Source of the DNA: Salipaludibacillus daqingensis
GTDB taxonomy: Bacteria; Bacillota; Bacilli; Bacillales; Salisediminibacteriaceae
Direction of reading: 5' to 3'
NCBI RefSeq assembly: GCF_029891575.1
Contig: NZ_JARZHF010000009.1
Span: 186,001-250,000, forward strand
Length of the DNA stretch: 64,000 nt
Shown here: in pieces, positions 799 to 18,665 of the stretch
How positions within the stretch are numbered: the stretch's first letter is position 1
How the letters are laid out: each line of letters starts with the position of its first letter
Translations under genes and position numbers: made by a program
Notes under the pieces: model-generated
Seen by the model: the letters and a program-made list of their open reading frames with translations, nothing else
The model's database searches: none
What the model was told of the DNA's origin: nothing

Positions 799-830
799 AT
801 TGTAATCTTATTATTTGAAGAAAGTTTGAA
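799..830 (-). promoter_or_regulatory. Candidate response-regulator box and promoter (copy 1)
   Basis: On the - strand: TTCAA (830-826), six bases, TTCAA (819-815), ten bases, then -10 TACAAT (804-799). It drives the tandem AbrB-like gene. The two half-sites lie 11 bp apart, one helical turn, as for OmpR-family activators, and they cover the -35 position. Six other promoters in the window share this exact spacing. Confidence 0.6.
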
Positions 831-856
831 GTTTGTATGTGAAATTTCCCTAAATC

Positions 857-900
857 AATAAGTAAATGAACACCAAAATTTTGGTGTTCATTTACTTATT
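857..900. repeat. 44-bp perfect palindrome
   Basis: Two 22-bp arms (857-878 and 879-900) are exact reverse complements with no loop bases between them. It lies between the promoter of the AbrB-like gene and the next + strand gene. It could be a large regulator-binding site, a bidirectional terminator without the usual loop, or the scar of a small inverted duplication. No T-run typical of a terminator follows directly. Confidence 0.9.
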
Positions 901-1064
901 ATCTTTCTGTACCTTTCATATTTATAAAAAATGGGACATACCTTTAATCAATAGAGTTAAAAAGGGAGGGCAAGATGCTGGAACACTTCTCTACTTAATT
1001 TTGAAGGTAAATCAAATCACTTTTTATTTCAGTTATGGTTTAAAATCGATCAGGAGGTATAATC

Positions 1065-1628
1065 ATGCTTAGTATTATCATTTTTTTCAGCTTAACAATA
1101 ATCATTCTATATCGTTTACTGACAATGATCAAAAACAAAACGGATGCCATGGAAGGCATGGTTCTCACCATGTCACTCAGCATGGCTCTCGGTTTAATCG
1201 TTGGCATCATTGTCGCCCTTCCACTAGAAGGTCACTTACTCTTATCTACTCTTGTAAGTGTTGCAATTGCCTCATTAATTGGCCTCCTGATCGGTCTTCT
1301 TTTCAGCTACCATGCTAGTTTCGAAGGTGTGTTTAGTGGATTAATGTCCGCAATGATGGCTGTCATGATTGTTGAGATGATACCTATGGAGCATCGGTAT
1401 ATTTTCCTTTTTGCTAGTAGTATGTTTTTCATTTTGACTACCGTCTTTTGTTTCATGTTTCTCCTTTTTAGGAAAAATCAAAAAAACAACATGTCGATTG
1501 TATATTTTGGCGCGATCATATGGGTTATTTTCGCTTTTTTTATCCTTCTAACGAACACTCCTACATCATTTGAACAGATTGAGGATGAACATGAGTACCA
1601 TACCTTTTCGATCGAGCGTTTTCGTTAA
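1065..1628 (+). CDS. Met-rich polytopic membrane protein of unknown function
   Basis: A 187-residue protein with about five hydrophobic segments (near residues 3-20, 33-55, 58-82, 85-108 and 112-165) and an acidic C-terminal tail. The middle is rich in Met and Gly (for example MEGMVLTMSLSMALG and LMSAMMAVMIVEMIPM). Met-rich membrane segments can bind Cu(I), and CopA lies next to it on the opposite strand, so a link with copper is possible, but this is inference. AGGAGG lies 7 bases before the ATG. I do not recognise a characterised family. Confidence 0.7.
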   Translation: MLSIIIFFSLTIIILYRLLTMIKNKTDAMEGMVLTMSLSMALGLIVGIIVALPLEGHLLLSTLVSVAIASLIGLLIGLLFSYHASFEGVFSGLMSAMMAVMIVEMIPMEHRYIFLFASSMFFILTTVFCFMFLLFRKNQKNNMSIVYFGAIIWVIFAFFILLTNTPTSFEQIEDEHEYHTFSIERFR

Positions 1629-1652
1629 TTGGATCTACTCTGAAGAAAAAAA

Positions 1653-1688
1653 GAAAGAGAAGGGATAAACTTCCCACTCTCTTCTTTC
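1653..1688 (-). terminator. copA: Terminator between the membrane-protein gene and copA
   Basis: An imperfect GA-rich/TC-rich hairpin with a short loop around 1666-1671. On the - strand the stem is followed by a long T-rich run, as expected for the end of copA. It may also stop the convergent + strand transcript. Confidence 0.6.
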
Positions 1689-1705
1689 CGAAACAATTTC
1701 ATTGA

Positions 1706-4174
1706 TTAACTTTGCGGAATAGATTTAAACTTTTTTAACCTAAGTGTATTTAGTACAACCGAAACGGAACTAAACGCCATAGCGGCACCCGCTAACGCTG
1801 GATTAAGAAATATACCGATGAAAGGATATAAAACACCCGCTGCCACTGGGATGAGTACGATATTATATCCGAAAGCCCAACCAAGGTTTTGCCAGATCAT
1901 CCGCATGGTTGCTTTTGATAACCTTAAAGCTGTGACGACACTCATGACATCACCTCTCATCAATGTGACGTTTGCTGTTTCTACCGCCACATCTGTTCCT
2001 GTTCCAATGGCAATACCTACATCTGCTTGCGCCAAAGCTGGTGCATCGTTAATCCCGTCTCCTACCATGGCAACGATCTTTCCATTTTGTTGCAGAGATT
2101 TCACTTCTGCTGCCTTATTTTCTGGGAGAACTTCGGCAATATAATCATCTATGCCCGCTTCCTTTGCAATTGCTCTCGCTGTTCTCTCATGATCACCTGT
2201 AATCATCACAACTTCCATGTTCATCTTTTTCAATGCTTGAATAGCTCGCACTGTATCTTTTTTCAACGTATCAGCGACTGCAATAACACCAGCAAACTCC
2301 CCATTAACGGCAACATACATTGGTGTTTTCCCTTGATCAGCTAATTCCGTTGCTTGACCTTCTATTTTCTTATCGAGTGAAATATTATTTTCTTGCATCA
2401 AGAGGAGATTCCCAATAAATACATCGAAATGATCTAGCTTGGCCGTTAACCCTCTTCCTGTAATAGAGTTGAAATTATCCACATCCCTGATGTCTACATT
2501 TCTATCTTTCGCATGGTGAACAATCGCTTCACCTAAAGGATGTTCGGATGCTTTTTCAACGGAGGCGACGATCGATAGAAACTCTTCTTCGGTAAATGTT
2601 GATTCTGTTAGGATGTCTGTTACTTCCGGTTTCCCTTCTGTGATCGTCCCTGTTTTATCTAGAACGACCGTCGTTACTTTATTTGCTCTTTCTAAACTCG
2701 TTGCATCCTTAATTAAAATTCCATTTTCCGCGCCTTTTTCCGTCCCAACCATAATAGCTGTAGGTGTAGCTAACCCTAACGCACAAGGGCACGCAATGAT
2801 TAACACTGCGATGAAGGATGTTAGTCCGACAATAAATGCTGGTTCAGGTCCAATCATCCACCACAGTCCAAAACTGAATGTTGCTAATACAACCACTGCT
2901 GGCACAAAGTAAGCAGCAACGACATCAACGACTCGTTGGATCGGTGCTTTCGATCCTTGTGCTTCATTCACCATTCGAATGATTTGCGCCAAGGCAGTGT
3001 CCTTGCCTATTTTGGTTGCTTTGATAACAAAACTACCAGTTTTATTAATCGTCGCACCAATTACTTCATCTCCTTTTTCCTTTTCAACCGGTATAGACTC
3101 TCCCGTTAACATCGATTCATCGACCGAAGAATTTCCTTTTATAACGATTCCATCGACTGCGATTTTTTCCCCTGGTCTTACGAGAATTTCATCATCTATG
3201 ATAACTTCTTCAATGGGAATTTCCGTTTCTTCTCCTTCTCTAATAACAATAGCTGTTTTCGCTTGCAAGCCCATTAACTTTTTGATAGCCATGGACGTTT
3301 GTCCTTTCGCCTTCGCCTCTAAATAACGTCCGAGAATGATCAACGTCGTAATAACTGTTGTCACGTCATAATAAAGTTGGTAAGGAAACCCCATCCCTGT
3401 TAATGTTTCTGGAAACAGTGTCATCGCTCCACTATAAAGCCAGGCAGAGGTCGTTCCCATCGCTACAAGAACGTTCATATCTGCGGATTTATTTCTCAAC
3501 ACTTTATAACTGCTTGTGTAAAATCTCATCCCTGGACCTAATTGGACAAAACTTGTTAATATTAGTAGCACATATGGGCTCGACATAAATTCTGGAACCC
3601 AAGCACCCCACTCTGGCATCATATGAGGAATACTTCCGATAAGCACAAACGTTGTAAGTAATGCACCTAACGTGAAATCCCTCTTTAGTTTTGAAATTTC
3701 TTTCTTTTGATGGTCTTCTTGATCTTCTGAATTCTCTTGTTCTAACACACTGGCATCATACCCAATTTTCTTTACTGCTGCTGTGATAAGAGAAGGATCA
3801 AAATTTTTATTATTCACCTTCACTTGTGCCTGATGAGAAGCTAAATTAACACTTACCTCTTCCACACCATCGATTTTACCAATCTTTTTTTCTACACGAT
3901 TAACACAAGATGCACATGTCATCCCTTGCACGGAAAACAACCAACTTTGTTCGTCATTCTCATTTATTCGATTCGCTTCATAACCAGTTTTCTCAATCGC
4001 ATTAATAACTTGCTCATCGGAAAGGCGTTCAGGGTCTAATGTGACTTGTGATTCATTAGTAGCTAGGTTCACACTAACATCTTCTACACCATCGATTTTT
4101 AACAGAGATTTCTCTACTCGGTTGACACAAGACGCACATGTCATCCCTTTCACTAAGAAACGTTTTGTTACCAT
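1706..4174 (-). CDS. copA: Copper-exporting P1B-type ATPase CopA
   Basis: An 822-residue P-type ATPase that pumps Cu(I) out of the cytoplasm across the membrane. Two N-terminal HMA metal-binding domains each carry GMTCASC (near residues 10-16 and 84-90). The ion-binding CPC motif in ACPCALG, the phosphorylation motif DKTGT, the actuator motif LTGES, the P1B signature SEHPLG and the hinge motif GDGINDAP are all present, so the enzyme looks complete. Length and two-HMA layout match Bacillus CopA. AGGAGG sits 6-7 bases before ATG 4174. A CsoR-type operator lies about 50 bases upstream. No copZ chaperone gene is adjacent, unlike the usual copZA operon, and the CsoR-family gene in this window (22869-23129) looks like CstR instead, so CopZ and CsoR are presumably encoded elsewhere. 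Confidence 0.97.
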
Positions 4175-4222
4175 TAGTCATCCTCCTCTTTCTAAACTTC
4201 CCTACTTCTATATTTTCTATAT

Positions 4223-4244
4223 TACCATACCTAGGTAGGGTATA
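4223..4244 (-). promoter_or_regulatory. CsoR-type operator upstream of copA
   Basis: On the - strand it reads TACCCTACCTAGGTATGG, close to the B. subtilis CsoR operator pattern TACCCTAC-N-GGGTATGG as I remember it. It sits between the copA start and the upstream terminator, where a copper-responsive repressor would act. Confidence 0.65.
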
Positions 4245-4260
4245 CAACAATTAGAAATAA

Positions 4261-4289
4261 AAAGTTCTTGTTTCAAACACAAGAACTTT
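4261..4289 (-). terminator. Terminator of the small secreted-protein gene
   Basis: An 11-bp perfect stem (4261-4271 with 4279-4289) just after the stop at 4298. On the - strand it is followed by TTATTTCTAATT. It separates this gene from copA. Confidence 0.8.
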
Positions 4290-4297
4290 GTCATTTC

Positions 4298-4480
4298 TTA
4301 GTCATTCCCGTGGCAAGTGTTATACATTGCTTTCAAATCATCTTCAGACGAGTCAGGGTGCATTTGTTGCATGAAAGGAAGCATTTCTTGAAAATCACCA
4401 TTGTAATTGCTTGCCCAAACTGATGATCCTATTCCAAAAACCAACCCTAAAGAAAGTATTCCAGCCAGTAATTTTTTCAT
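4298..4480 (-). CDS. Small exported protein with a C-terminal CHG motif
   Basis: A 60-residue protein: signal peptide MKKLLAGILSLGLVFGIGSS with likely cleavage after VWA (about residue 24), then a mature part of about 35 residues ending in MYNTCHGND. A longer frame upstream exists, but ATG 4480 has the better start, with a GGGG-containing site about 10 bases upstream and a signal peptide beginning at the ATG. The single Cys-His pair could bind metal or heme-like ligands, but no family function is established. Similar small proteins sit beside copper pumps in other Bacillaceae. Its promoter has the shared response-regulator box, and the adjacent TCS1 genes lie immediately upstream on the same strand. 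Confidence 0.6.
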   Translation of the reverse strand: MKKLLAGILSLGLVFGIGSSVWASNYNGDFQEMLPFMQQMHPDSSEDDLKAMYNTCHGND

Positions 4481-4521
4481 TTTCAATTCATCCCCTTTCG
4501 TATGTTTCAGCCTCACCTTAA

Positions 4522-4553
4522 ACAATACGAAATAAAAATGAAGAAACAATGAA
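4522..4553 (-). promoter_or_regulatory. Candidate response-regulator box and promoter (copy 2)
   Basis: On the - strand: TTCAT (4553-4549), six bases, TTCAT (4542-4538), ten bases, -10 TATTGT (4527-4522). It drives the small CHG protein gene starting at 4480 and lies just downstream of the TCS1 histidine kinase gene. Confidence 0.55.
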
Positions 4554-4598
4554 GTTAGATGCTTTCTTTCCATGCAATTGTAACCGTTCATAAAATCG

Positions 4599-6044
4599 TC
4601 ACTTCATAAGCGGGATGTAAAGATAAAATGTCGTCCCTACTCCTTTTTCACTCTCTACTTTCACATGCCCCTTATGGGCTAATATAATTTCCTTAACAAT
4701 TGCCAATCCCAATCCTGTCCCACTTTCGTCACGGGAACGAGACGGATCTGTTTTATAAAAACGCTCCCATATGAAATCAATTTTGTCTGCCTCCATTCCT
4801 TCGCCCGTATCAGAAATTTCAAAAACGAGCATTTTCTCTTTTTTATAACAAGATAGATTTATTTGTCCTTGAACTCCTGTATATCGAATCGCATTTTCCA
4901 ACAAATTTATCAGTGCTTGTTCCATTCGGAAGGAGTCAAGCAAAATAGTATCATTTTTAATCGATGGATCAATCGTTAACGATGCTGTAATCTCCTTTTG
5001 ATCAAACATGATTGCTCTACTCTGAAAAAGAGGATGGAGCCATTCCGTCAAATCAACGGTATCATAATGAAGGTGAATTTTTCCTTCTTCTAGTTTTGTT
5101 AAAAGAAATAAATCACTCACCAGATTTTCCATTCTTCTTGCTTCATCATAAATAACTTGTAAATTCCGCTTCCATCCCTCATGATCAACCTTTTCGGAGT
5201 CTTTCATCAACGCTGAGTAACCCTTAATATACGTGATGGGGGTACGCAAATCATGAGAAATGTGAGATATAAACTGTCTTCTCGTATCCCGGTATTCTTT
5301 TAATTGTCTTGTCATTTGTTGAATATTCAAACCTAACTGTCCGACCTCATCTTTGCCTTTCGTATCGATGTCGATATCGAAATCACCTTTAGCAATATCT
5401 TCCGTCCGTTTACTCATTTCATTTAATGGATTAGATACTCTCTTCGTCAAATACAAAATGAACGCATATCCGATAATAAACGTCAGTGCACCCATCACTA
5501 AAAGAAGTAACAAAAGATTCATTCTCGCACTATTTAAGTCCCCAGTATCTTGGTCAATGAACACATACCCTATCGTTTCCCCTGTCTCACTTTCAATTTC
5601 TGTTGTGCCCCAAACATGAGGGATGTGAAATGCCATCGATGTATCCACTTGTTCCGTAAAAGATATTCGGTGATGAGTAGCTACTTCATCCCGATTTTCC
5701 TCTATAAATACACGATATTCACCAACTAATTCTGATTCTACATTTTCTGACTCAAAAATGAGATCCAAGTTTTCATCAGTAATGATTAAGTAACTATCTT
5801 TCCCAGTCTCTAACATATTCAAGTAATTTAATACTTCTTCATTTTGCTCCGACTTTAATAAACTTGCATGAGCAGACAGACGTTCTTCCACCTCTGATAT
5901 TAAATGATCCTGATAAAAATTCGTCGTAATCCAATGGGCGCCACTTATAATAAAAATAATTAATAAAAGTAATGATACCATCACCCACGTCGTAATTCTC
6001 ATCGCTAAACTTTGTTGTAAACTAGTGATTATTCGACGAATCAT
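4599..6044 (-). CDS. Sensor histidine kinase of TCS1
   Basis: A membrane histidine kinase of about 481 residues. Order: short cytoplasmic N-terminus, TM1 (about 18-42), an extracytoplasmic sensor region of about 130 residues, TM2 (about 176-200), HAMP, DHp with HISHDLRTPI, then the ATPase domain with N-box ENAIRYT, G1 DTGEGM and G2 GTGLGLAIV. All catalytic motifs are intact. I place the start at ATG 6044, because AAGGTGG lies 6 bases upstream; it overlaps the end of the response regulator gene by 23 bases, so the pair is translationally coupled. The signal is unknown. Neighbouring CopA, a His-rich lipoprotein and wall-related genes suggest metal or envelope stress, which is inference. Confidence 0.9.
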   Translation of the reverse strand: MIRRIITSLQQSLAMRITTWVMVSLLLLIIFIISGAHWITTNFYQDHLISEVEERLSAHASLLKSEQNEEVLNYLNMLETGKDSYLIITDENLDLIFESENVESELVGEYRVFIEENRDEVATHHRISFTEQVDTSMAFHIPHVWGTTEIESETGETIGYVFIDQDTGDLNSARMNLLLLLLVMGALTFIIGYAFILYLTKRVSNPLNEMSKRTEDIAKGDFDIDIDTKGKDEVGQLGLNIQQMTRQLKEYRDTRRQFISHISHDLRTPITYIKGYSALMKDSEKVDHEGWKRNLQVIYDEARRMENLVSDLFLLTKLEEGKIHLHYDTVDLTEWLHPLFQSRAIMFDQKEITASLTIDPSIKNDTILLDSFRMEQALINLLENAIRYTGVQGQINLSCYKKEKMLVFEISDTGEGMEADKIDFIWERFYKTDPSRSRDESGTGLGLAIVKEIILAHKGHVKVESEKGVGTTFYLYIPLMK

Positions 6045-6732
6045 ACGTATCCACCTTATATCCAATGCCCCAAACGGTTTCGATAACCGTTCCTTCGTAT
6101 CCCTCTATTTTCAACTTTTCTCGAATGTTTTTAATATGAGTATCTACGGTTCTTAAATCTCCGTCATATGGCATTTGCCACTCTAAGTTCAATAGTTGTT
6201 CTCGGCTATAGACTCTACCTGGATTCGTTGCTAATCGATGAAAAATAGAATATTCTTTTTTCGTCAATGGTAGAGGAACTCCCCCATAAATAATTTGATA
6301 TTTATTTGGATAAAAATCCAATCCTTTCAGATGAAAAGATTGATCGGCTGTTTTTTGTAACTGAGATCTCCTTAATACAGATTCAATCCTAGCCGTAAGT
6401 TCTCTCGGTTCAAATGGTTTCACGATATAATCGTCTGCCCCTAACTGCAATCCTTGGACGACCCGTTCCGTATCTCCTAATGCAGACAGTAGAATGACTG
6501 GTGTTTTCCGATCTAATTCTTGACGTAACATTTTCAATAATTCAAAGCCGTCAATTTCAGGCATCATAATATCCAATATCACAATCGAAATGTTATGATT
6601 GTTAATTGCTTCTATTGCTTCTATTCCATTTGTCGCTTCAGAAACGTGATAATTCTTCTCTGATAAACAAAGCTTTAATAACGTCCTCATCTCTTGCTCA
6701 TCATCAACAATGAGAATTCGTTTTTCCTTCAT
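6022..6732 (-). CDS. OmpR-family response regulator of TCS1
   Basis: A two-domain response regulator of about 236 residues. The receiver domain has the acidic pair DDE near residue 10, the phospho-acceptor in VILDIMMPEIDGF (about residue 53) and the Lys of IVKPFEP. The C-terminal winged helix (about 130-230) has the OmpR-type ending with RTVDTHIKNIREKL and GIGYKV. Two ATGs are possible, 6738 and 6732; the second is better spaced from GAGAGGG. It is the best candidate for the factor binding the TTCAN-N6-TTCAN boxes that flank this locus on both sides, although TCS2 is also possible. No copy of that box precedes the gene itself. Confidence 0.9.
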   Translation of the reverse strand: MKEKRILIVDDEQEMRTLLKLCLSEKNYHVSEATNGIEAIEAINNHNISIVILDIMMPEIDGFELLKMLRQELDRKTPVILLSALGDTERVVQGLQLGADDYIVKPFEPRELTARIESVLRRSQLQKTADQSFHLKGLDFYPNKYQIIYGGVPLPLTKKEYSIFHRLATNPGRVYSREQLLNLEWQMPYDGDLRTVDTHIKNIREKLKIEGYEGTVIETVWGIGYKVDTYDSSNNH

Positions 6733-6795
6733 CGTCATTCACCCTCTCGTTCATTCTATTGTATCTTATTTTGGAATTTCATATCATATAAACAA

Positions 6796-6836: not shown

Positions 6837-8156
6837 TTAATGATCACCGTGTTCGCCAGCAATTTCTAATTTCTCATCAAGAATACCTTGAATTGAAAAT
6901 GGAACATGGTCCACTCCTGCCAACAAATATGAATGATTGTATGGTCCTCCCATAGGGTTGTCATCAAAAGTAGGGCGAATGTCCGCTAAATATTCATACA
7001 AACTTTCTGTTACTTCCCCATCTTCTAACCAAACAAGCGGGGCATGTTTCCCTAAGTGACCTAATGCCGATCCTGTTATTGCCATATCTGGTGTTTCAGT
7101 TGAGATGAAACTCAGACCGTGTCCTGGCTCATCTTGTCCCCATCCTACTGTGGTATCAGGATCTTGATATTTAGCAAATTCAATAGACATTTCCGTTGGT
7201 GTTTCTCCACTTATTCGTTCCACTTCTCCATACTCACTCAAAGAATCGATCGTATCAGATTCGATCATCTCTTCAGAACCTAATACATAAATTTTTGCAT
7301 TGCCTTCTCTTTTCTCCAGAGCTTCGACCGTTGATTCCGGCACTCCTGAGTTATCTACATATAGAAGTGACTCATTCATATGAGCGATCCAGTTACTAGC
7401 GATCAACGAATAATGTTTCGCCTCTTCTTCCGATGATGCAACGATAACAGACTCTGGAACATCACCAATCATATCAGAAAAATAGTCATCGATATCAGCA
7501 GCAAATCCAGCTGCGTCATTGCCATCAAACTCTTCCAAATTAAAATCGTTCAGGTGAGATAACGTCTCCTCACTTGCATCTCCAATAACCATTAATTCTA
7601 CGCCATCTTCATTTCCAATTGGATTCAATCTCTCTATTTCTGTCAACACCTCATCTGATATCTCTCCATCCTCCATAAATAAGACTGGTCCATCGTTTGG
7701 ATGATGAATGAGCGTTGTACTAACAAGAGATTTTTGCCAATCTTCAAGAGGTGCCAATATGATCGTACCTGGCTGATTTTCCTCATGTGTTGCTGGCCAC
7801 ACTAATTGCGAAGTATAGATAGACATATCCACCGCTGAGTTTGCATCCAACCTTGTGACGTTTTTTGTTTGGTTATGCATCAGTGACTCTTCTGCATTAG
7901 GATTCATATTCTCTGGTTCAGAAGCAAATTCATCGTGTTGTCCGTCACTATGACCATGATCAGCCATATGATCATTCCCATCGTTTTCATTCTCATTTTC
8001 ATGGTTATTCATGTTCCCATCGTCTGAATGAACTTCATTATTGTTCTCTTGATTATTCATGTTGTTATTTGCCAAATTGTTCTCCTCATCATCTGCACAA
8101 GCTGAAATGATGAAGGCCGTTGATAAAATTGTTAATGAACTTATTAATTTTCTCAT
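6837..8156 (-). CDS. His/Asn-rich lipoprotein with cell-wall-binding (CWB2-like) repeats
   Basis: A 439-residue lipoprotein. The signal peptide ends at lipobox ISAC (Cys 20). Then comes a low-complexity Asn/Asp/His/Glu-rich linker (about 22-80) with many His, including HMADHGHSDGQHDE, suited to loose metal binding. The rest (about 95-439) has repeated alpha/beta units with motifs such as GTIILAPLEDW, PVLFMEDGEIS, IYVLGSEEMI and APLVWLEDGEV, resembling the putative cell-wall-binding repeat 2 family. The C-terminus again is GEHGDH. AGGAGG is well placed before ATG 8156. Its promoter carries box copy 3, and TCS1 follows it. A role in binding extracytoplasmic metal or sensing the wall is inference. 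Confidence 0.7.
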   Translation of the reverse strand: MRKLISSLTILSTAFIISACADDEENNLANNNMNNQENNNEVHSDDGNMNNHENENENDGNDHMADHGHSDGQHDEFASEPENMNPNAEESLMHNQTKNVTRLDANSAVDMSIYTSQLVWPATHEENQPGTIILAPLEDWQKSLVSTTLIHHPNDGPVLFMEDGEISDEVLTEIERLNPIGNEDGVELMVIGDASEETLSHLNDFNLEEFDGNDAAGFAADIDDYFSDMIGDVPESVIVASSEEEAKHYSLIASNWIAHMNESLLYVDNSGVPESTVEALEKREGNAKIYVLGSEEMIESDTIDSLSEYGEVERISGETPTEMSIEFAKYQDPDTTVGWGQDEPGHGLSFISTETPDMAITGSALGHLGKHAPLVWLEDGEVTESLYEYLADIRPTFDDNPMGGPYNHSYLLAGVDHVPFSIQGILDEKLEIAGEHGDH

Positions 8157-8250: not shown

Positions 8251-8282
8251 AATATACGTTGCTTTTTTGAAGAAAGTTTGAA
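8251..8282 (-). promoter_or_regulatory. Candidate response-regulator box and promoter (copy 3)
   Basis: On the - strand: TTCAA (8282-8278), six bases, TTCAA (8271-8267), ten bases, -10 TATATT (8256-8251). It drives the His-rich lipoprotein gene. The core is identical over 17 bases to copy 1. Confidence 0.65.
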
Positions 8283-8287
8283 GTTTT

Positions 8288-9121
8288 CTATCCTTGAACA
8301 TTGAAATATAAAAGAAGTGAAAGAATTAAAAGTATTGCAACCGTCACAGCTACTTTCCATTTTTCCCTGTTGCTACTAATAGGAACAGGAAATTCTCCTT
8401 TATGTTGACCTTTCTTTTTTACAATGAAATAAACAGCAATCGCCATTCCTATAAGGCTCATCACATGGCTTACACTCAAACCTCCTATCACTTGAGGATT
8501 TACTCTGGAGAATTCTACAATCCCTCTTATGAGCATAAAGCCAAACAGGTAATGTAAAAATACCTCTCCTGTGTAGCGAGGTGCTTGTAACTTTAACCAT
8601 AAATACCCAAATAAGATGTAATTTAATGTGAATTCATAGGCTTGAGCTGGATGGACCATTTCTCCATTGTTTTCAATTTTTATTGGCCACCAATCAGGTG
8701 CAGCAAAACCAAACACATCACACCCAATCCTACTAATTCCTTGAGCAAGTATTAAAGATGGCGCAACCAAATCTAATGTATTCCATACGGATAACTTCTT
8801 TTTCTTTAAATAGATATATCCTGTTAGTAACCCTCCTATAATACCTCCGTGTATGGAAAGACCACCTTGGTTAATGAATAGTATTTCTAATGGACGTTCC
8901 AAATAGTAACCAGGATTGTAAACAAATACAAAAATAACCCTCGCTCCTAAAATTCCTCCTAGTAAAGAATAAAAAACGCCATCTAATAGAAGATCTTTTT
9001 CGACATTTGCTTTTTTTGCTTCGTGTACTAATAATCCGACGCCTATCAACGCCCCGACGGCAATCATTACTCCAAAAAAATGAATAGATATGGGACCTAA
9101 ATGAAATAGTGGTTCGATCAT
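8288..9121 (-). CDS. lgt: Prolipoprotein diacylglyceryl transferase Lgt
   Basis: A membrane enzyme that moves diacylglyceryl from phosphatidylglycerol to the lipobox Cys of prolipoproteins. Starting at ATG 9121 it is about 277 residues, the usual length, and begins IEPLFHLGPISIHFFG, the typical Lgt start. Family motifs are present: GGLSIHGGIIGG (catalytic His region), RIGCDVFG (usually RIGNF) and HPAQAYE. About seven membrane segments. GGAAGGGA lies 11 bases upstream. It is probably an extra copy, since the usual Bacillus lgt neighbours (hprK) are absent. It sits between lipoprotein and wall genes and has its own shared-box promoter (copy 4), suggesting induced lipoprotein processing. Confidence 0.92.
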   Translation of the reverse strand: MIEPLFHLGPISIHFFGVMIAVGALIGVGLLVHEAKKANVEKDLLLDGVFYSLLGGILGARVIFVFVYNPGYYLERPLEILFINQGGLSIHGGIIGGLLTGYIYLKKKKLSVWNTLDLVAPSLILAQGISRIGCDVFGFAAPDWWPIKIENNGEMVHPAQAYEFTLNYILFGYLWLKLQAPRYTGEVFLHYLFGFMLIRGIVEFSRVNPQVIGGLSVSHVMSLIGMAIAVYFIVKKKGQHKGEFPVPISSNREKWKVAVTVAILLILSLLLYFNVQG

Positions 9122-9164: not shown

Positions 9165-9196
9165 AAGATAAACTGCTGAATTGAAGAAAGTTTGAA
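9165..9196 (-). promoter_or_regulatory. Candidate response-regulator box and promoter (copy 4)
   Basis: On the - strand: TTCAA (9196-9192), six bases, TTCAA (9185-9181), ten bases, -10 TATCTT (9170-9165). It drives lgt and lies about 90 bases from the divergent copy 5. Confidence 0.65.
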
Positions 9197-9283: not shown

Positions 9284-9315
9284 TTCACAGAACCTTCATA
9301 AACAATCAGTACATT
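9284..9315 (+). promoter_or_regulatory. Candidate response-regulator box and promoter (copy 5)
   Basis: On the + strand: TTCAC (9284-9288), six bases, TTCAT (9295-9299), ten bases, -10 TACATT (9310-9315). It drives the NlpC/P60-like gene. Confidence 0.55.
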
Positions 9316-9348: not shown

Positions 9349-10308
9349 ATGAAGAAATTAGTCATTAGTGCAACGTTGGCAGGTGCTGTATTTATAAGTC
9401 CTATGGTGGGGGAAGCAGCATTAGGAGATCAACTACTAAAAAAAGGGATGAAGCATGAAGATGTCAGGGAACTTCAATTGGAATTGAGAGAGACTGTCAG
9501 TATGGAATCACAAATAGACGGTATTTTTGGCCCTTTAACCAAACAATCAGTCAAGGAATTTCAAAGCAAAAAGGGAATCACTGTAGATGGCATTGTTGGA
9601 CCTGAGACTTTCTCTGCTTTTAATATACATAACAGTGACAGTTCTACTACTGTTGCTTCAAGTAGCAATGATTTAAACGCGTCTTCCGTTTTAAGAGAAG
9701 GATCGCGAGGAGCAGATGTAAAATCTCTCCAATCTGCTTTAAAAGATCTTGGAATGTATACATCAACCCTTGATGGTATTTACGGTCCTTTGACCGCTAG
9801 AGCTGTGAGAAACTTCCAGCAAGATGCAAATATACAAGTGGATGGCATTGCAGGGCCACAAACATTTAACTCGTTAAATGGAGAGGAAACATCGGGTGCT
9901 ACAACAGCTTCTTCTAATAACAGTAGTACAAGCCAATCAGCATCAGCAAATGTTGATCAATTAGTCCAAGATGCGAAAGACTTATTAGGTTCGTCCTATG
10001 TATGGGGTGGAACAACTCCTGCCGGCTTCGATAGCAGTGGTTTCATCGTGTATGTGTTTAATCAAAACGGGATTAACCTATCAAGAACTCATCGGGAATA
10101 TTATTATGAGGGAGAATCCGTCTCGAACCTTCAAAGAGGAGATGTTGTCTTCTTCCAAACCTATTTAGACGCACCTTCACATGCTGGAATCTACCTAGGT
10201 AATAATGAATTTATCCATAATAGCTCATCTCAAGGAGTCATCATTACAAGCATGGATAACTCTTATTGGAGTCCAAAATACATTGGTGCAAAACGTTACA
10301 CAAAGTAA
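9349..10308 (+). CDS. Secreted NlpC/P60-like wall protein with two PG-binding domains; catalytic Cys replaced by Ser
   Basis: A 319-residue exported protein. A signal peptide (about 1-22, ending GEA) is followed by two peptidoglycan-binding-1 domains (about 25-90 and 118-180, each with DGI-x-GP-LT and VDGI-x-GP-x-TF), a Ser/Asn/Thr linker, and a C-terminal NlpC/P60 domain (about 205-319). In active enzymes this domain has DCSG; here it reads GFDSSGF, codons GAT AGC AGT, so the nucleophile Cys is Ser. The catalytic His region SHAGIYLG and the later NEFIHNSS remain. It may be a non-catalytic wall-binding protein or have changed chemistry. ATG 9349 is preferred over GTG 9340 because of GAGGAGTGGGAG just upstream. 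Box copy 5 lies upstream, and a strong terminator follows. Confidence 0.85.
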   Translation: MKKLVISATLAGAVFISPMVGEAALGDQLLKKGMKHEDVRELQLELRETVSMESQIDGIFGPLTKQSVKEFQSKKGITVDGIVGPETFSAFNIHNSDSSTTVASSSNDLNASSVLREGSRGADVKSLQSALKDLGMYTSTLDGIYGPLTARAVRNFQQDANIQVDGIAGPQTFNSLNGEETSGATTASSNNSSTSQSASANVDQLVQDAKDLLGSSYVWGGTTPAGFDSSGFIVYVFNQNGINLSRTHREYYYEGESVSNLQRGDVVFFQTYLDAPSHAGIYLGNNEFIHNSSSQGVIITSMDNSYWSPKYIGAKRYTK

Positions 10309-10770: not shown

Positions 10771-11676
10771 TCAATTATCAACAGGGTCTCCGTTTTCAAC
10801 GAGAGGGCTCCAAGAAGTGCCTTGATCTTCTGACAAGTAAATCGAATCAGAAGCTGTTCCCACAGCAATCATATTTTCATCGGTTGGACTGACAGCTATA
10901 GAAAGAACTGGATCCTCAGAAGGGAGCACTCCGAATGATTCCCACGTTTCGCCCATATCTTCACTTATCATTAATCCTTCTACCTCTCCGACACCGTGAG
11001 CGATTAAGTGACCATCAGCATTATCGTCCACACTCGTCATTGTTAAATTTGAATTAATCTGAGTAAAACTTTCGCCTCCGTCTTCTGATCGATAAACACC
11101 ATCTCGCATGCCTGTAACAACAACGTCGCCATCAGAAGGGTCTGAAATAATCGAATATAACTCGAATTCGTTGAGATTAATTCCCTCTAAAGTTGCAGTT
11201 TCCCAGCTCTCACCACCATTTTGTGACCTTTTGACTTGCTGCCCGTAAGCATCAAAACCGTATATCACATTAGGATTTGCCTCATTCACCTCAATCAAAT
11301 GAAAATCAACTTCTCCATATAACATCCCTGTGTGCCAAGATTCCCCTCTATCTTCACTGATCATTAAACCAAGAGGATCTTCTAAATCGGACTCTGGATC
11401 AGGGTGACCGCTGCTCACAAACGTATTATCGGATGTAATAGTAAATCCCATAAAATCATGCCGCTCCTGTTGCTCACCTTGCCATGACATCCCATTATCT
11501 GTATCAATTTCAATAAGCCCATGATGGGTCCCCACAAATAAATAATCTGATTGTTCCCGATCAAAAGCTAGATCATGAATGTGAACAATCGACTCCACTT
11601 TTTCCGCTTCATCCGAACTTGTCGTGCATCCAGTAATCAATATAAACAAACTCATGCCTATTATCAACGTCTTCAA
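10771..11676 (-). CDS. BNR/Asp-box repeat lipoprotein (F510_1955-like)
   Basis: A 301-residue lipoprotein with lipobox ITGC (Cys 17), followed by a beta-propeller built of sialidase-type BNR repeats, each with an Asp-box such as SEDRGESW, SQNGGESW, SEDGGESF, SEDMGETW and SEDQGTSW. Such propellers bind ligands or proteins; no glycosidase catalytic residues can be claimed. The start is TTG 11676, with GAGGAG 8 bases upstream. It follows the TlpA-like thioredoxin gene by 26 bases and is likely its operon partner under promoter copy 6. Bacillaceae often carry this family near copper genes; its function is unknown. Confidence 0.75.
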   Translation of the reverse strand: MKTLIIGMSLFILITGCTTSSDEAEKVESIVHIHDLAFDREQSDYLFVGTHHGLIEIDTDNGMSWQGEQQERHDFMGFTITSDNTFVSSGHPDPESDLEDPLGLMISEDRGESWHTGMLYGEVDFHLIEVNEANPNVIYGFDAYGQQVKRSQNGGESWETATLEGINLNEFELYSIISDPSDGDVVVTGMRDGVYRSEDGGESFTQINSNLTMTSVDDNADGHLIAHGVGEVEGLMISEDMGETWESFGVLPSEDPVLSIAVSPTDENMIAVGTASDSIYLSEDQGTSWSPLVENGDPVDN

Positions 11677-11702
11677 TCTTCTCTCTCCTCTAATAGAACC
11701 TG

Positions 11703-12233
11703 TTAATCTCCATTGGGTACGATCGATTCTAAGGCTTCTAATACTTGAGATTTCGTTTTGCCTCCAATTTGGCGCTCTAAGACCATGCCTTCATCATCAA
11801 TGAGTAACGTATGTGGGATGGCACTTACTCCGTAAGCATTTCCTACAGCCATTCCTCGATCAATTGGATTTGGATAAGGTACTTGATGACGCTCAAGAAA
11901 TCTTTGCACTTGAATCGATGATTCATCAACATTAACCGCTATAATTTCAACATCTTTATCCTTATACTCGTCATAATGGTCCTTTAAATATTCCATCTTA
12001 TCTATACAATACGTACAATAAGTTGCCCAAAATGTTAAGTAGACACCTTTCCCTTTATAATCCTCTAAGTGAATTTCCTCCCCATCCACATCTTTAAGAA
12101 TAAAGTCTACCGCCTGATCTCCTGCATCCACCAATCCTCTTTCCTCTGAAAAATGTGTGTAAAATGTATAACCAATTGCCGCTACCATCGATAATAAAAT
12201 GATGGAACGAATCAGTAATCTATTTTTTTTCAT
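11703..12233 (-). CDS. Membrane-anchored TlpA/ResA-like thiol-disulfide oxidoreductase
   Basis: A 176-residue protein with an N-terminal signal anchor (about residues 7-25) and an AhpC/TSA-thioredoxin fold outside the membrane. The active site is FWATYCTYC (CTYC instead of the common CEPC or CPPC), and the cis-Pro loop is SAIPHTLLID. The altered CxxC residues should shift its redox potential. AGGAG lies about 8 bases before ATG 12233. It probably works with CcdA, encoded 7 kb away, which supplies electrons to such proteins in Bacillus. It is first in a two-gene operon with the BNR lipoprotein. Confidence 0.88.
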   Translation of the reverse strand: MKKNRLLIRSIILLSMVAAIGYTFYTHFSEERGLVDAGDQAVDFILKDVDGEEIHLEDYKGKGVYLTFWATYCTYCIDKMEYLKDHYDEYKDKDVEIIAVNVDESSIQVQRFLERHQVPYPNPIDRGMAVGNAYGVSAIPHTLLIDDEGMVLERQIGGKTKSQVLEALESIVPNGD

Positions 12234-12318: not shown

Positions 12319-12350
12319 ATAATACCGAGAAAATATGAAAATTGTGTGAA
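12319..12350 (-). promoter_or_regulatory. Candidate response-regulator box and promoter (copy 6)
   Basis: On the - strand: TTCAC (12350-12346), six bases, TTCAT (12339-12335), ten bases, -10 TATTAT (12324-12319). It drives the TlpA-like/BNR operon, with a 5' leader of about 80 bases. Confidence 0.55.
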
Positions 12351-12470: not shown

Positions 12471-13013
12471 ATGGAGTATGTTATTCCTATAATAGATTTA
12501 GAGAAAATCGACTCAATGAAAAAAATATTAAAAAAGAAGTCTACTCGAGATTTTTTATTATTTGTTTTTGGGATTAATACCGGAATTCGTATCAGTGAAA
12601 TTCTTCCTTTAAAATTTCATGATATTTTTAGATGAACACCATCAACTTTACTCACATATTACCATTAATCATAACGACATATTCTTGAATAACCAAATTA
12701 AACAAGCGTTTAATGAACATACTCTATCAACCATCTACACAATGAACGACTATGTATTCAAATCTAATAAATCAATAGAACCGATCACGCGTCAACAAGC
12801 CTATCGGATTATTCATGACACGGCTAGAAAAGTCGGTTTGTCCGAAAATATTGGCACTCATACATTCGCAAAACATTCGGTTATCATGCGTATACGAAAG
12901 GCATTTCTGTTTCACTTATACAACAACGACTCCACCACTCTAGTCCATCAGAAACATTGAAGTATATAGGCATCGATCGTCATCACCTACTAAAATTAGA
13001 TGTAAATTTATAA
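12471..13013 (+). pseudogene. Frameshifted tyrosine recombinase (XerC/D-like small integrase)
   Basis: Three reading frames join into one integrase-like protein of about 180 residues. Segment 1 (12471 on) gives FLLFVFGINTGIRISEILPL, the catalytic Arg region of tyrosine recombinases. Segment 2 (about 12619-12868) gives ITRQQAYRIIHDTARKVGL and then GTHTF. Segment 3, back in the first frame to the stop at 13011-13013, gives FGYHAYTKGISVSLIQQRL and LHHSSPSETLKYIGI, the HxxR-box and final helix region, with the catalytic Tyr in LKYIGI. Frame changes lie near 12605-12620 and 12862-12872 and cancel each other. Small integrases of this kind are scattered in Bacillus and may be domesticated. It suggests past mobility of this region. 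Confidence 0.8.
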
Positions 13014-14522: not shown

Positions 14523-14557
14523 AACCTCCGTTCACATAATTAATGTAAACGGAGGTT
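14523..14557. terminator. Bidirectional terminator
   Basis: A 10-bp-plus stem (14523-14532 with 14548-14557) followed by CTCTTTTT on the + strand and an A/T-rich flank on the other. It lies between convergent genes for the antiporter and the MFS protein. Confidence 0.85.
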
Positions 14558-14566
14558 CTCTTTTTA

Positions 14567-15796
14567 TTAATCTAATTTGCGGAAGTATGAGCTAAATATA
14601 ACGAGTAAACAGCTGAAAAGAAGCCCCGCACTTCCCCATATCGTCAAGATCGTCTGGATCGGCAAAGCTGCTGCAACGAGAAATGAAATGAGCCCAAAGG
14701 CAATTGGTTCAAATCCACTTGCCGCAAGTGTGATAATACTCATCACTCGCCCTAGTTTATCTTTATCTGTTCTTTCCTGGACAATGGTTACCGTTGGTAA
14801 ATAAACAAACATCGCCATAAATCCTGAAAGTCCCGCTAACAAAACGAGAAACAGAAGTGATTCTACTTGGCTGAACACAATAAAAAAAACAAAACTGAGT
14901 AAAAGCGACCCAAAGATGAGTCTTCCTCTTCGTTTTTTCATATTCCATACAACAATGATGACACTTGCTAGAAATGTCCCCATCGACAATCCAGCTTCTA
15001 GTAAACTTAGCTCAAACGGTGCTCCCCCTAATGCTTCTACAAGAATCGGAAAACTAATTATTAAAGGACCAATCATAAATAAGTTTATGATGACGATCGA
15101 GAGAGTCCCCGTGCGATGAACAGGAGATTGTTTTACGTAATTAAGCCCTTCTTTTAAATCGTCATATGCCGATGGACTTCCTTCCCGTTTTGCTGGCTTT
15201 GGATCACGGATAAACGGCGGGTATACAAGGATCGTCGATATAAATATCAACACCGCAGCAGCCGAAAACGTTAGTGTGAAGTCTCCAATCGTTAATAAAA
15301 ATCCTGCCACAAGAGGTCCGATGATAAACATCATTTCTGTTGACCCTTGAAATAGAGAGTTTGCCCGCTGCAACTGTTCATCTCTTACGATAATTGGAAT
15401 CATGGACGAAACAGCTGGAAAGAAGAAAGCATCTAGAAACCCAAACACGAGAGCAATAATAATGAGTGATGTCACTTGAAGCCAATCATTCAAAAATAAG
15501 ATGATCATTGCGACCATCACTAACCCTTGCAAAAAGTTTGTCACAAACATAATGAACGATTTGCGTATTTTGTCTGCCAATATCCCTCCATAGATCATCA
15601 TGATCACCCGCGGAATGGACACGGACATTAGAACTGCTCCCAAAACAGCAGGACGATTCAATACGTCAACGATATACCAAGAAACGGACAAAAAGAACAT
15701 AGAGAAACCAAGCATGATCGTTAAGCCTGACATCCACACAAGCATGAACGATCTATTTTTATATAATGACTTTGATGGAATAATTTCTTCGCTCAT
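14567..15796 (-). CDS. MFS transporter (DHA3-like drug efflux type)
   Basis: A 409-residue major facilitator with about 12 membrane segments and the loop motif GGILADKIRKS between TM2 and TM3. The overall look, with a central cytoplasmic loop FIRDPKPAKREGSPSAYDDLKEGLNYVKQSP, resembles MFS_3 proteins related to macrolide efflux pumps. The substrate cannot be read from sequence. GAGGAGAGGGA lies 4-8 bases before ATG 15796. No operon partner. Confidence 0.85.
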   Translation of the reverse strand: MSEEIIPSKSLYKNRSFMLVWMSGLTIMLGFSMFFLSVSWYIVDVLNRPAVLGAVLMSVSIPRVIMMIYGGILADKIRKSFIMFVTNFLQGLVMVAMIILFLNDWLQVTSLIIIALVFGFLDAFFFPAVSSMIPIIVRDEQLQRANSLFQGSTEMMFIIGPLVAGFLLTIGDFTLTFSAAAVLIFISTILVYPPFIRDPKPAKREGSPSAYDDLKEGLNYVKQSPVHRTGTLSIVIINLFMIGPLIISFPILVEALGGAPFELSLLEAGLSMGTFLASVIIVVWNMKKRRGRLIFGSLLLSFVFFIVFSQVESLLFLVLLAGLSGFMAMFVYLPTVTIVQERTDKDKLGRVMSIITLAASGFEPIAFGLISFLVAAALPIQTILTIWGSAGLLFSCLLVIFSSYFRKLD

Positions 15797-15960
15797 ACTT
15801 CCCTCTCCTCTTCAGACAAAAAAGGCCAGACTGCCCAAATATGAAGGAGTCTGACTTTCATAGATGATATTTATTTTAGCACAGATGAAAGCTTACCTTC
15901 ATACTGGAGAACTTTGTTGAATCTCCTCTTTATCAATTAAGCGGGCAGTTATCCAACTTA

Positions 15961-16620
15961 TCATTCGTCCTTAATGTTTAATCCTAAAATCTTCGATAGC
16001 CCTATCGCTTGTTCTGATGTCACCGTGCAGCCAGTCAGCTTATCCAAAGAAACAATTAGACTATCAAACGAAGAACTGCTCAAATCAATTCCATCCAAAC
16101 TTGTTTCTGCAAAGTTACATCCATCCATACGACAAGACTTAAATGCGACGTTTTTGAACGTTGATTCGTAAAAGTCTGTTTCAATGAGCGATGTTTCTTT
16201 AAAAGCTACTTGCTTACTGTCTGAAAATCCAAACGTACTATAGTTAGCGACACAGTTATGGAAGCTTACATTTCGCAACGTAGCCCCCGAAAGATTTCCG
16301 CCAGTCAATTTTGACTGGTTCACTTCCACACGATGAATGATCGCATCACTGAAATCAACATTCGATAAGTTACATTTTTCAAAAATCACGTCAGTAAATT
16401 CTACATTACGGAATTGTACATTTTCAAATGATACGTGTCGAAAAACCATTTGATCAAAGCGAATTTTATCCGCTGAGTGAGGTCGAAAGTGAAGATCATT
16501 CACTTCCCCCGATGAATACTCCTCTTCATCATTGATTATTTCTTGTAGATCCATACTTAGTAAGCCATCATTTATGCGAGGCTTTTCTATTTTTGATTTT
16601 GATTTTGATTTTTTCGTCAT
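15961..16620 (-). CDS. Pentapeptide-repeat protein
   Basis: A protein of about 219 residues. After a basic N-terminus (KSKSKSKIEKPR), residues about 55-200 form pentapeptide repeats A(D/N)LXX with frequent F/L at the central position (VSFENVQFRNVEFTDVIFE, CNLSNVDFSDA, TDFYESTFKNVAFKS). These fold as a right-handed beta-helix. Length is similar to Qnr gyrase-protecting proteins, but the repeat count and loops are not sufficient to call it Qnr. The end TSEQAIGLSKILGLNIK is common in Firmicutes relatives. ATG 16626 and ATG 16620 are both possible; 16620 has the better spacing to GGGAG. Confidence 0.8.
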   Translation of the reverse strand: MTKKSKSKSKIEKPRINDGLLSMDLQEIINDEEEYSSGEVNDLHFRPHSADKIRFDQMVFRHVSFENVQFRNVEFTDVIFEKCNLSNVDFSDAIIHRVEVNQSKLTGGNLSGATLRNVSFHNCVANYSTFGFSDSKQVAFKETSLIETDFYESTFKNVAFKSCRMDGCNFAETSLDGIDLSSSSFDSLIVSLDKLTGCTVTSEQAIGLSKILGLNIKDE

Positions 16621-16809
16621 TATCATAACTCCCTACTTTAAATAAATAAGTCAGTCTAAACTGTGAAAATACAGCGCCGATTTTCATTATGAATGTACAG
16701 TTGATTCCAGCACAGACCTTTATTCCAAAAGGTACTATTAAGCATAATACTTTACTTTTCGCTAATCCTAATAAAATATGTCTACTATGTTAGGAGGATT
16801 TAATTATCT

Positions 16810-18138
16810 ATGTTATCATCCACTTTACGATCAAAGATTCGTTCAAGTTTCTGGACCATCCCTTCTATATACGCCTTGATTGCCGTCGTATTGTCATTCG
16901 TGAGTGTAGCAATAGATCCATATATTTTAAGCCATCAAAAGATTTATAATATGATCCCTTCTATTCTATTTATAGATATAGAATTAGCTCGCACCATTTT
17001 AAGTTCTATTTCGGCTTCATTACTGACGATGACAACGATTACTTTTTCTACGATTCTTGTTGTGTTAACAACGTTTCTATCTGAGTTTTCACCAAGGACG
17101 TTGCAAAATTTCATTACAAACCCAAGTACACAAAGGGTTTTAGGGATTTTTGTAGGTGGATTTATCTATTCCATCCTTTTGTTATTATTATTAAAACCAA
17201 CAGAACAATTATCTTTATTCTTTGTTCCATCTTTAGCTGTTTTTTTAGCGATCATTTGTTTAATGGTTTTCGTTTTCTTTATCCATCATACGTCAAACTG
17301 GATTCAAGTAAGCAACCTAATTCACAATATTAGTATAAGTGCGACGCAAAAAATTGATGAACAACTTAGTAATGAAGACGAAGTGCATGAGGATGCACCA
17401 TGGGAAGATTGGGAATCAGAAGAAATTAAAAACAAACCTGTCCATAAAATCTTTTCTCATAAAACCGGTTATATTAGAAAAATAAACATTCAAGGTCTTA
17501 TTAAACAAGCAGCTAAAGATGACGTTATCATAAGGGTTGAAAGACAAATGGGTGAATATGTTAATTTTGAAACTACGCTTTTATCTATCTGGAAACTAAA
17601 CCACCAACACTCTAAGATTCATTACGAAAAATACATATCTATTGGCAAAAAAAAGGCTCCCATCGATGATATTGAGTTTGACTTAACGAAACTAGTTGAA
17701 ATCGCTCTTCGTTCCTTATCTCCTGGAATAAACGATCCGTATACAGCAATTAATTGTATTGACAATTTAGGACGAATCTTAGATAAATTAGGAAAAAAAT
17801 ACTTACCGAAAGCCTATCATCATGACAAAAATCGTAATTTAAGAGTGCTTTGGGATAGACCCGATTTTCGTTATTACCTATATAAATGTTTTTATCAAAT
17901 TACTTACCACGGTTTTAAAGACATTTCTGTTTTATTAGCCATCACCAAATCGTTAACAATCATTGCTCATAATAATTCAACAAGAAGAAAAGAAGTCATT
18001 TGGGAATTAACTGAGTACATCATTGAAGGAATTAACCGTGAAACCCTTCTTTCTCTCGATAGAAAATATCTTAATGAACAATTAGTTTCTCTTGCAACAG
18101 CTACTGGCCATAACAAACGTTTCAAACCGTTCAGTTAA
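16810..18138 (+). CDS. DUF2254 membrane protein
   Basis: A 442-residue protein with four N-terminal membrane segments (about 15-40, 55-90, 115-140, 145-165) and a large cytoplasmic part. The segment TFSTILVVLTTFLSEFSPRTLQNF is characteristic of DUF2254, as is SPGINDPYTAINCIDNLGRIL. Some relatives have been discussed as possible mechanosensitive or transport proteins, but no function is established. The ribosome site AGGAGG lies 12-13 bases before the ATG, rather far. Its tail overlaps the convergent HhH pseudogene by 4 bases. Confidence 0.8.
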   Translation: MLSSTLRSKIRSSFWTIPSIYALIAVVLSFVSVAIDPYILSHQKIYNMIPSILFIDIELARTILSSISASLLTMTTITFSTILVVLTTFLSEFSPRTLQNFITNPSTQRVLGIFVGGFIYSILLLLLLKPTEQLSLFFVPSLAVFLAIICLMVFVFFIHHTSNWIQVSNLIHNISISATQKIDEQLSNEDEVHEDAPWEDWESEEIKNKPVHKIFSHKTGYIRKINIQGLIKQAAKDDVIIRVERQMGEYVNFETTLLSIWKLNHQHSKIHYEKYISIGKKKAPIDDIEFDLTKLVEIALRSLSPGINDPYTAINCIDNLGRILDKLGKKYLPKAYHHDKNRNLRVLWDRPDFRYYLYKCFYQITYHGFKDISVLLAITKSLTIIAHNNSTRRKEVIWELTEYIIEGINRETLLSLDRKYLNEQLVSLATATGHNKRFKPFS

Positions 18139-18602
18139 TTGTCATACCACGCTTTCTTCGGTCTAGACGCTGGATACCCATATTTTGTTCGATACAATTT
18201 CCGCTCCTCTGTAAAGTCATACCAATATTTATCACTTTCAGGATTTATAGCATAGTGGACGATACATCGAATTTGGTCTTCCGCGCAAGGGTCTATCCAG
18301 AACCCGAGCTCCCTTTCTAATGCATTCAACAATTCTGCACCGTTTTTGTTTTTTAATTCTTCTAATGAATATATCCCAAGTTTGTCGACCATATTCGTAG
18401 CCATCTTAGCACCGATGGAAGGAATTCTCTGAAAAGTAGCGAGTGCATGGAGCATCCTTGCTCGTTAATAAGGAACTGATAACATTTCTGCTAGTTCCAT
18501 TACTTCTAGTTGATGTATATCACGCATCTTCTTTTTTGCCTTTCGTAAAGATGCTTTCTCATTACTCGTTAAAGGCAGCGTCGGACTTTTTGCTAGCCCC
18601 AT
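18135..18602 (-). pseudogene. Cdd1-type helix-hairpin-helix gene with an in-frame stop
   Basis: Reading from ATG 18602, which has a strong GGAGGAG site, gives about 45 codons (SPTLPLTSNEKASLRKAKKK and on to EMLSVPY), then TAA at 18465-18467, then the same frame continues RARMLHALATFQRIPSIG and on to the stop at 18135. The continuous sequence fits the small Cdd1 (pathogenicity locus) HhH family, about 155 residues, with PSIG as the hairpin and CAEDQIRCIVHYA downstream. A single nonsense change therefore splits it. Restart at ATG 18455 could still make the last 106 residues. It is either a recent pseudogene or a sequencing error. Confidence 0.7.
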
Positions 18603-18633
18603 CTTTATCTCCTCCGTTCTTTTATTTCAACCT

Positions 18634-18665
18634 TTCATCAAATTTTCATAAACCTTTGCTAGGCT
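18634..18665 (+). promoter_or_regulatory. Candidate response-regulator box and promoter (copy 7)
   Basis: On the + strand: TTCAT (18634-18638), six bases, TTCAT (18645-18649), ten bases, -10-like TAGGCT (18660-18665). It would drive the five-gene operon Lgt-like/ccdA/tlpA/TCS2 with a very short leader. The -10 is weaker than in the other copies. Confidence 0.45.

Follow-up and report, generated by a model that had tools for sequence, protein, structure and literature searches.

Two sister promoter boxes and two OmpR-type two-component systems, one of them probably copper-responsive, at a locus of Salipaludibacillus daqingensis

The stretch of DNA analysed in this work (hereafter the window) comprises 64,000 nucleotides of Salipaludibacillus daqingensis (contig NZ_JARZHF010000009.1, positions 186,001 to 250,000, forward strand) and contains two two-component systems (TCS1 and TCS2) among genes for a copper-type ATPase and several secreted or membrane-bound proteins. 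An initial annotation of this DNA had listed seven promoters with one common spacing and had suggested that they may form one two-component regulon. All seven sites, at the coordinates and on the strands first listed, are exact matches, with no mismatch, to the pattern TTCA-N7-TTCA-N11-TA-N3-T; they are conserved in relatives and include two sister boxes, A and B, which track two different response regulators.

Read from the left, site 1 (799-830, - strand) is the putative promoter of a gene for an AbrB-like regulator (385-765, -; start at 765), with PF04014 at residues 69-108 and TIGR01439. Next comes a copper-type P1B ATPase gene (1706-4174, -) without a strict site of its own; upstream of it, sequence reading revealed a CsoR-type operator-like sequence (4223-4242, no strand), which we take to resemble the copZA operator of Bacillus subtilis. 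Site 2 (4522-4553, -) precedes the gene of a small secreted CHG protein (4298-4480, -; start at 4480), a member of a mostly Met-rich family. TCS1 follows, with its sensor kinase HK1 (4599-6065, -; HAMP, HisKA and HATPase domains) and its response regulator RR1 (6022-6738, -; PF00072 and PF00486), the proposed activator at box A. A hairpin was seen by eye between the RR1 gene and that of a His-rich lipoprotein of the CWB2 fold (6837-8156, -; PF04122), whose predicted fold matches Cwp6 and Cwp8 and whose start, at 8156, lies downstream of site 3 (8251-8282, -). Sites 4 (9165-9196, -) and 5 (9284-9315, +) are divergent promoters, the former of an accessory lgt (8288-9121, -; start at 9121), one of two in the genome (the second, higher-scoring Lgt is at C3:137563), and the latter, 33 bp before the ATG at 9349, of an NlpC/P60 gene (9349-10308, +). 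The NlpC/P60 protein has Ser at the usual catalytic Cys position (GFDSSG, 10020-10070), as do its homologues in L060, L061 and L252; the Ser-type protein of L252 belongs to another genus and adjoins an RR1 homologue, and seven other NlpC homologues in the scanned loci keep the Cys.

Further to the right, site 6 (12319-12350, -) is the putative promoter of an operon with the genes of TlpA1 and a BNR lipoprotein (10771-12233, -; start at 12233), and beside it lies a frame-broken remnant (12472-12960) that resembles, by eye, a tyrosine recombinase gene. Site 7 (18634-18665, +) stands before the TCS2 operon (ATG at 18688), the first part of which comprises lgt-like, ccdA and tlpA2 genes (18688-20740, +), the lgt-like protein having no Pfam match. 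The operon continues with the response regulator RR2 (20767-21456, +; an NCBIfam match and PF00486), the proposed activator at box B, and the sensor kinase HK2 (21326-22525, +, as the open reading frame is listed; an NCBIfam match), whose true start is probably later. Beyond TCS2 (22869-23571), a CsoR-family protein in which Asn replaces the copper-ligand His is encoded beside a rhodanese gene; it is presumably like the CstR-type persulfide sensors. Near the TCS2 operon, 8 of 18 relatives have rhodanese homologues and one has a CstR homologue. A third OmpR-type two-component system (C9:184700-186000, L052) is found left of the window, beside a gene for a Met-rich CHG-like secreted protein.

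At each of the seven sites a start codon in the right orientation lies 22-94 bp downstream of the -10 element, in agreement with the initial annotation; for two genes, those of the small secreted protein (4480) and of lgt (9121), the inferred start falls inside the longest open reading frame. The matches are far more numerous than expected by chance, since 100 dinucleotide shuffles of the window contained 0.22 on average and never as many as seven. In the whole genome (4.58 Mb) the pattern occurs 21 times, against 8 for the reversed pattern, a type of control that is too lenient owing to base frequency and the change of codon phase; scans of gap spacing are fairer. Among 81 gap combinations (3-11 by 7-15) in the window, 7/11 gave the seven matches and each of the other 80 at most two, and the clustering of 7 of the 21 genomic matches in the window compares with 0.20 expected at the rate of the rest of the genome (P of at least seven, 2e-9). 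The bare core TTCA-N7-TTCA without a -10 element is unremarkable in the window (15 occurrences; 6-22 for gaps of 0-20), and therefore the significance rests on the core plus the -10. When scored with a weight matrix trained on 44 sites from other genera, the seven took ranks 1-6 and 8 among all window positions, a ranking that is partly circular, as the training sites required the strict core and at least four of eight consensus letters and some of them came from stretches picked by the motif itself.

The sites and their conservation are strongly supported. Neither outcome named at first as refuting the proposal, a background-level frequency or a lack of conservation in relatives, was observed. 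A homologue of the CWB2 lipoprotein is present in 38 of 150 genomes, the window's genome counted, and 40 stretches around such homologues (760 kb) contain 41 strict sites, compared with a mean of 2.3 and a maximum of 6 for the other 80 gap combinations; 14 of the 40 stretches have no strict site. Likewise, 80 named loci, which overlap partially with those genomes and include Salipaludibacillus, Evansella, Alkalicoccus and Halalkalibacter, contain 48 strict sites against a mean of 4.0 (maximum 10) for other gaps, and the Anoxybacillus loci among those listed have none. The consensus of 48 sites from the window and the stretches, c-TTCATAcTTTc-TTCATAttT and TAnaaT, is an 11-bp direct repeat where the -35 box would be, and a repeat in place of the -35 is typical of many promoters activated by OmpR-family regulators. 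An activator of this family, as first suggested, is thus compatible with the sites. The half-site often has the form CTTCA, with C before the first TTCA in 36 and before the second in 34 of 48 sites, three of which are box B sites.

Related boxes were seen elsewhere. A strict site at G000:C10:56155-56186 (L019) lies about 360 bp before the gene of a membrane protein without a Pfam match, and in L253 a nearly identical box stands upstream of an AbrB-like gene, not far from a homologue of the L019 membrane protein; the L019 site is possibly another member of the regulon. A box with GTTCATATT half-sites precedes a gene that looks, by eye, like an alarmone synthetase (G000:C5:42634-44274, L054), with another two-component system after it, and the same type of box precedes an alarmone-synthetase-like gene in G028 (L062:15739). 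It may perhaps be a third sister box.

The division into two boxes is seen in the sites themselves and in the relatives. Sites 1-4 read TTCAnnnTTTCTTCA (box A) and site 7 reads TTCATNAAAYTTTCAYA (box B); the core that the initial annotation had seen in copies 1, 3 and 4 is indeed common to them, as TTCAAACTTTCTTCAA. In the region before the lgt-like/ccdA/tlpA2/RR2 operon, 17 of 18 relatives have a strict site, the contig of the eighteenth ending inside the operon, and these 17 sites read TTCATNAAAYTTTCAYA, with a deviation at AAA in one. Matrices were built from 31 box A sites (5 of 36 being left out: L169, L173, two near-duplicates in L069 and one of two overlapping sites in L249) and from the 17 box B sites, and leave-one-out sorting was correct for 30 of 31 and 17 of 17, respectively. 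On these matrices the A/B scores are 21.3/-3.4 for site 1, 25.6/-2.6 for site 2, 19.2/-11.6 for site 3 and 14.2/-11.2 for site 4, which places the four in box A, and 13.7/28.2 for site 7, which places it in box B; site 6 (15.2/8.7) leans to A with some uncertainty and site 5 (9.6/10.9) is ambiguous.

The genome encodes 15 OmpR-type DNA-binding domains, and three such systems lie in or beside this region; TCS1 and TCS2 each consist of a regulator with receiver and winged-helix domains and an adjacent sensor kinase. Across the 150 genomes, with at least 52% identity taken to define an RR1 orthologue, box A was present in 18 of 22 RR1 genomes, compared with 37 of 128 lacking this regulator (p 4e-6); its search pattern cannot match box B. 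Box A had no significant association with RR2 (20 of 43 with this regulator and 35 of 107 without, p 0.14). Box B showed the opposite behavior, occurring in 25 of 43 genomes with RR2 and in 2 of 107 without (p 8e-15), with no significant association with RR1 (6 of 22 against 21 of 128, p 0.23). Where RR1 occurs without RR2, box A is present in 11 of 13 genomes and box B in none; where RR2 occurs without RR1, box A is present in 13 of 34 and box B in 19 of 34. Four genomes have RR1 but gave no match to the box A pattern (G019, G026, G039 and G084); the stretches fetched from them do contain strict sites. Of the single regulon first proposed, the shared strict pattern is thus retained and the single box with a single regulator is not, as the two boxes track RR1 and RR2 separately.

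Phylogeny and gene position agree with this division. In a midpoint-rooted tree, 19 RR1-like regulators from site-bearing stretches share the branch of RR1, together with two members from site-less stretches, and RR2 and the third regulator fall outside it. Ten distinct box A sites, from nine loci, stand before RR1 homologues, and another three before HK1 homologues. Box B gave 28 matches in 27 genomes, and 24 of the 28 lie 1.4-2.3 kb upstream of RR2, so that TCS2 looks mainly self-regulating; its presence before the operon in the relatives makes autoregulation of TCS2 the most likely function of site 7. The recognition helices of RR1 and RR2, RTVDTHIKNIREK and RTIDAHIKKIREK, are similar, as would fit sister boxes. 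Action of RR2 at site 7 is, on these sequence comparisons, very probable, and that of RR1 at sites 1-4 would be only slightly less so. A reading considered at first, in which RR1 acts at all seven sites and TCS2 is a mere target confined to the genus, was rejected on account of box B in the relatives.

The nature of the box A targets bears on the signal. In 191 loci, some chosen by the motif and with the stretches of the box B relatives set aside, 83 distinct strict sites were tallied. Downstream of 61 of them lies a gene homologous to one of the window targets or to RR1, HK1 or CueP, and the other 22 have no such gene; a few of the 61 are loose, with projected starts far inside (L241, L092 and L089), and in L246-L248 the sites were read and the genes covered in part. 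By family, the CWB2 lipoprotein accounts for 19 sites (the window's included), RR1 for 10, AbrB for 6, BNR and CueP for 4 each, and others for fewer. Homologues with sites include AbrB in L056-L058 and L093, CHG proteins in L228 and L239, Lgt in L242 and TlpA1 in L056 and L167. CueP is, according to Pfam, a periplasmic copper-binding family, and strict sites precede cueP in G010, G016, G023 and G078. Among the 51 of 57 CueP matches whose promoters were read, 7 of the 19 belonging to RR1 genomes and 3 of the 32 others have an upstream core site (p 0.028), 4 of these 10 core sites matching the consensus poorly. Some of the CWB2 lipoproteins have N-termini with MPMDEE or rich in His, and a multicopper oxidase fragment, a DUF326 protein and CopA or copper-type ATPases are encoded near RR1 homologues, as the copper-type ATPase adjoins TCS1 in the window. 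Contig 12 of the genome encodes a further CsoR, which has the Cys-His-Cys pattern; the CsoR-like protein of the window is the one without the His. The theme first proposed for the targets, that most act outside the membrane on thiols, lipoproteins or wall, holds in that the products are secreted or membrane-bound; for TCS1, copper fits better, given cueP and the CHG proteins.

The kinase HK1 offers further hints. One His after its first membrane helix is present, by eye, in all 26 HK1 homologues, and silver-bound CusS and CzcS are among the weak-score fold matches of its predicted sensor, which as modelled fits metal sensing. When the sequence of the sensor domain was searched against the PDB, only RGS matches at chance level were obtained.

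Concerning CueP, an in-frame TGA was observed where other members have Cys, in the context THP-TGA/Cys-xxH-x-LTGC (G000:C2:11422-11838, L277, and relatives). Among 51 CueP loci read, 29 have TGA and 17 Cys, with no call in 5. By best match, TGA is found in 33 of 54 CueP genomes, and 32 of these 33 have a full-length SelB, the exception being a genome 76% complete; SelB is missing in 12 of the 21 CueP genomes without TGA. One CueP copy gave a full NCBIfam match when its TGA was read as selenocysteine. The RNA around one CueP TGA showed no folding advantage over shuffled sequences (z 0.47), which leaves the support for a selenocysteine insertion sequence weak. The TGA pattern and the co-occurrence with SelB suggest a selenocysteine form of CueP; in many Bacillales, judged by sequence, CueP seems to be a selenoprotein. 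In a literature search, CueP, selenoprotein and selenocysteine came together only in an unrelated paper.

Previous studies describe systems with which TCS1 can be compared. In Corynebacterium glutamicum the CopR box TGAAGATTTgaTGAAGATTT, taken on the opposite strand, is CTTCA-N6-CTTCA, and the regulon comprises copRS, copB, secreted proteins and tlpA (PMC3140484). Both systems are of the OmpR type, the CopR box has the CTTCA half-site and the 11-bp period of box A, and in both the regulon includes a two-component system of its own, a P-type ATPase, secreted proteins and a TlpA-like protein. On the other hand, C. glutamicum belongs to another phylum and its genome carries a single site, compared with four to six in the present case, its kinase is described as having a far shorter loop than CusS and CinS, and no lgt is named in the portion of that account used here; the likeness is one of box and regulon content. 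By analogy, TCS1 may resemble a CopR-type regulon in its working. Listeria and Enterococcus have a copper-induced second lgt in a lit2-lgt2 operon (PMC8275575), which resembles the present case in that a second lgt is expressed with copper-resistance genes, the site-controlled lgt here being one of two; that operon also comprises lit2. Two homologous OmpR systems with similar direct repeats that a few bases distinguish are also known from Bacillus anthracis, where HssRS and HitRS respond to heme and envelope signals and cross-regulation was shown (PMC3968170). YclJK of B. subtilis is likewise an OmpR-type system with envelope targets, which differ from the present ones in being yngABC and ykcBC (PMC7961091). 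CusRS-like homologues in Bacillota have been tallied by similarity in one survey (PMC10141476), and our literature search found no characterised copper-responsive two-component system of Bacillaceae among the best-ranked papers.

Taken together, we consider it probable, if with less assurance than for the individual assignments of RR1 and RR2, that this locus combines two OmpR-type systems whose boxes are similar, TCS1 acting on box A in response to copper and TCS2 on box B. That copper is the signal of TCS1 is likely in view of the targets and the resemblance to the CopR box. TCS1 would most likely sense copper, and perhaps silver too, outside the membrane; phosphorylated RR1 would then bind box A, that is, two CTTCATAnTT half-sites 11 bp apart that replace the -35 box, and activate sites 1-4 and perhaps 5 and 6. 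The products, secreted or membrane-bound, would include the small protein of the Met-rich family, the CWB2 lipoprotein, an extra Lgt that may acylate such lipoproteins, and the AbrB-like regulator. RR2, in turn, would bind box B and, through site 7, activate its own operon with ccdA and tlpA2. Computation establishes the sites, the division into two boxes, their conservation and the separate tracking of RR1 and RR2; binding, activation, the copper signal and the role of each target are what we infer from the sequence comparisons above.

Several observations weigh against this reading. The box A pattern is found in 24 of 94 genomes with neither regulator, where single matches may be due to chance, and the matches of G121 and G021 are not near RR1. 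In the window no scoring site lies upstream of the TCS1 genes themselves, nor is there a site before copA or the genome's own cueP, and in G023 cueP is preceded by a site although an RR1 orthologue at the 52% level is lacking. RR1 and HK1 score 165.0 and 174.1 against the heavy-metal two-component profiles TIGR01387 and TIGR01386, under the cut-offs of 279.2 and 292.55, and are thus not filed in that family; RR2 (134.3) and HK2 (156.2) score still lower. A second His of HK1, in HIPH, is present in 20 of 20 aligned homologues, yet a single one of the six kinases outside the alignment (L054, L072, L077, L087, L089 and L091) has it, and two of the five lacking it (L089 and L091) come from site-bearing stretches. 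The predicted HK1 sensor (mean predicted local distance difference test score 80) has a general PAS-like fold with WalK as its top match, above CusS and CzcS. Finally, the TTCA half-site also recalls the HssR and YclJ boxes and by this analogy would not on its own point to copper.

The alternative that survives best keeps TCS1 on box A and TCS2 on box B and takes the TCS1 signal to be a general envelope or thiol stress, with the copper genes included in the response. The wall, thiol and lipoprotein functions of some targets, the predicted sensor fold closest to WalK, and a site before an M23/LysM protein in L239 would agree with it, but against it stands the recurrence of CueP, CHG proteins, multicopper oxidase and CopA in the neighbourhood of sites or of RR1, and we regard this signal as unlikely, at roughly one chance in several. 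A single regulon, with RR1 at all seven sites and box B as a mere variant, is less probable again: all seven sites do fit one strict pattern, and site 7 reaches its 13.7 on the box A matrix, but genomes with RR1 only lack box B in all 13 cases against its presence in 19 of 34 with RR2 only, and 13 of the 17 relatives with box B before the TCS2 operon are without an RR1 orthologue. That box A is read by a heme system of the HssR/HitR type or by a low-oxygen system of the YclJ type is very improbable. Their boxes, which we take to be GTTCATATT repeats and TTCATANTTT repeats, share the half-site and the 11-bp period, but no heme exporter (hrtAB) was noticed by eye downstream of the sites, no profile search having been made, and GTTCATATT-type sites lie elsewhere in the genome.

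If TCS1 reads box A in response to copper and TCS2 reads box B, the spore formers would gain a surface copper sensor beside CsoR, and the motif would find the regulon in any genome. The puzzle of the second lgt in copper loci would become testable, and the sister boxes would be a natural case of paralogous regulators keeping their promoters apart. In broader terms, and here we see the chances as evenly balanced, Bacillaceae may have a dedicated extracytoplasmic copper two-component system, whose regulon would join metal-binding surface proteins, private lipoprotein acylation, wall and thiol functions and, in some lineages, a selenocysteine CueP, and which would stand beside, and may cross-talk with, a second, self-regulating thiol-redox system whose box has diverged into a sister one.

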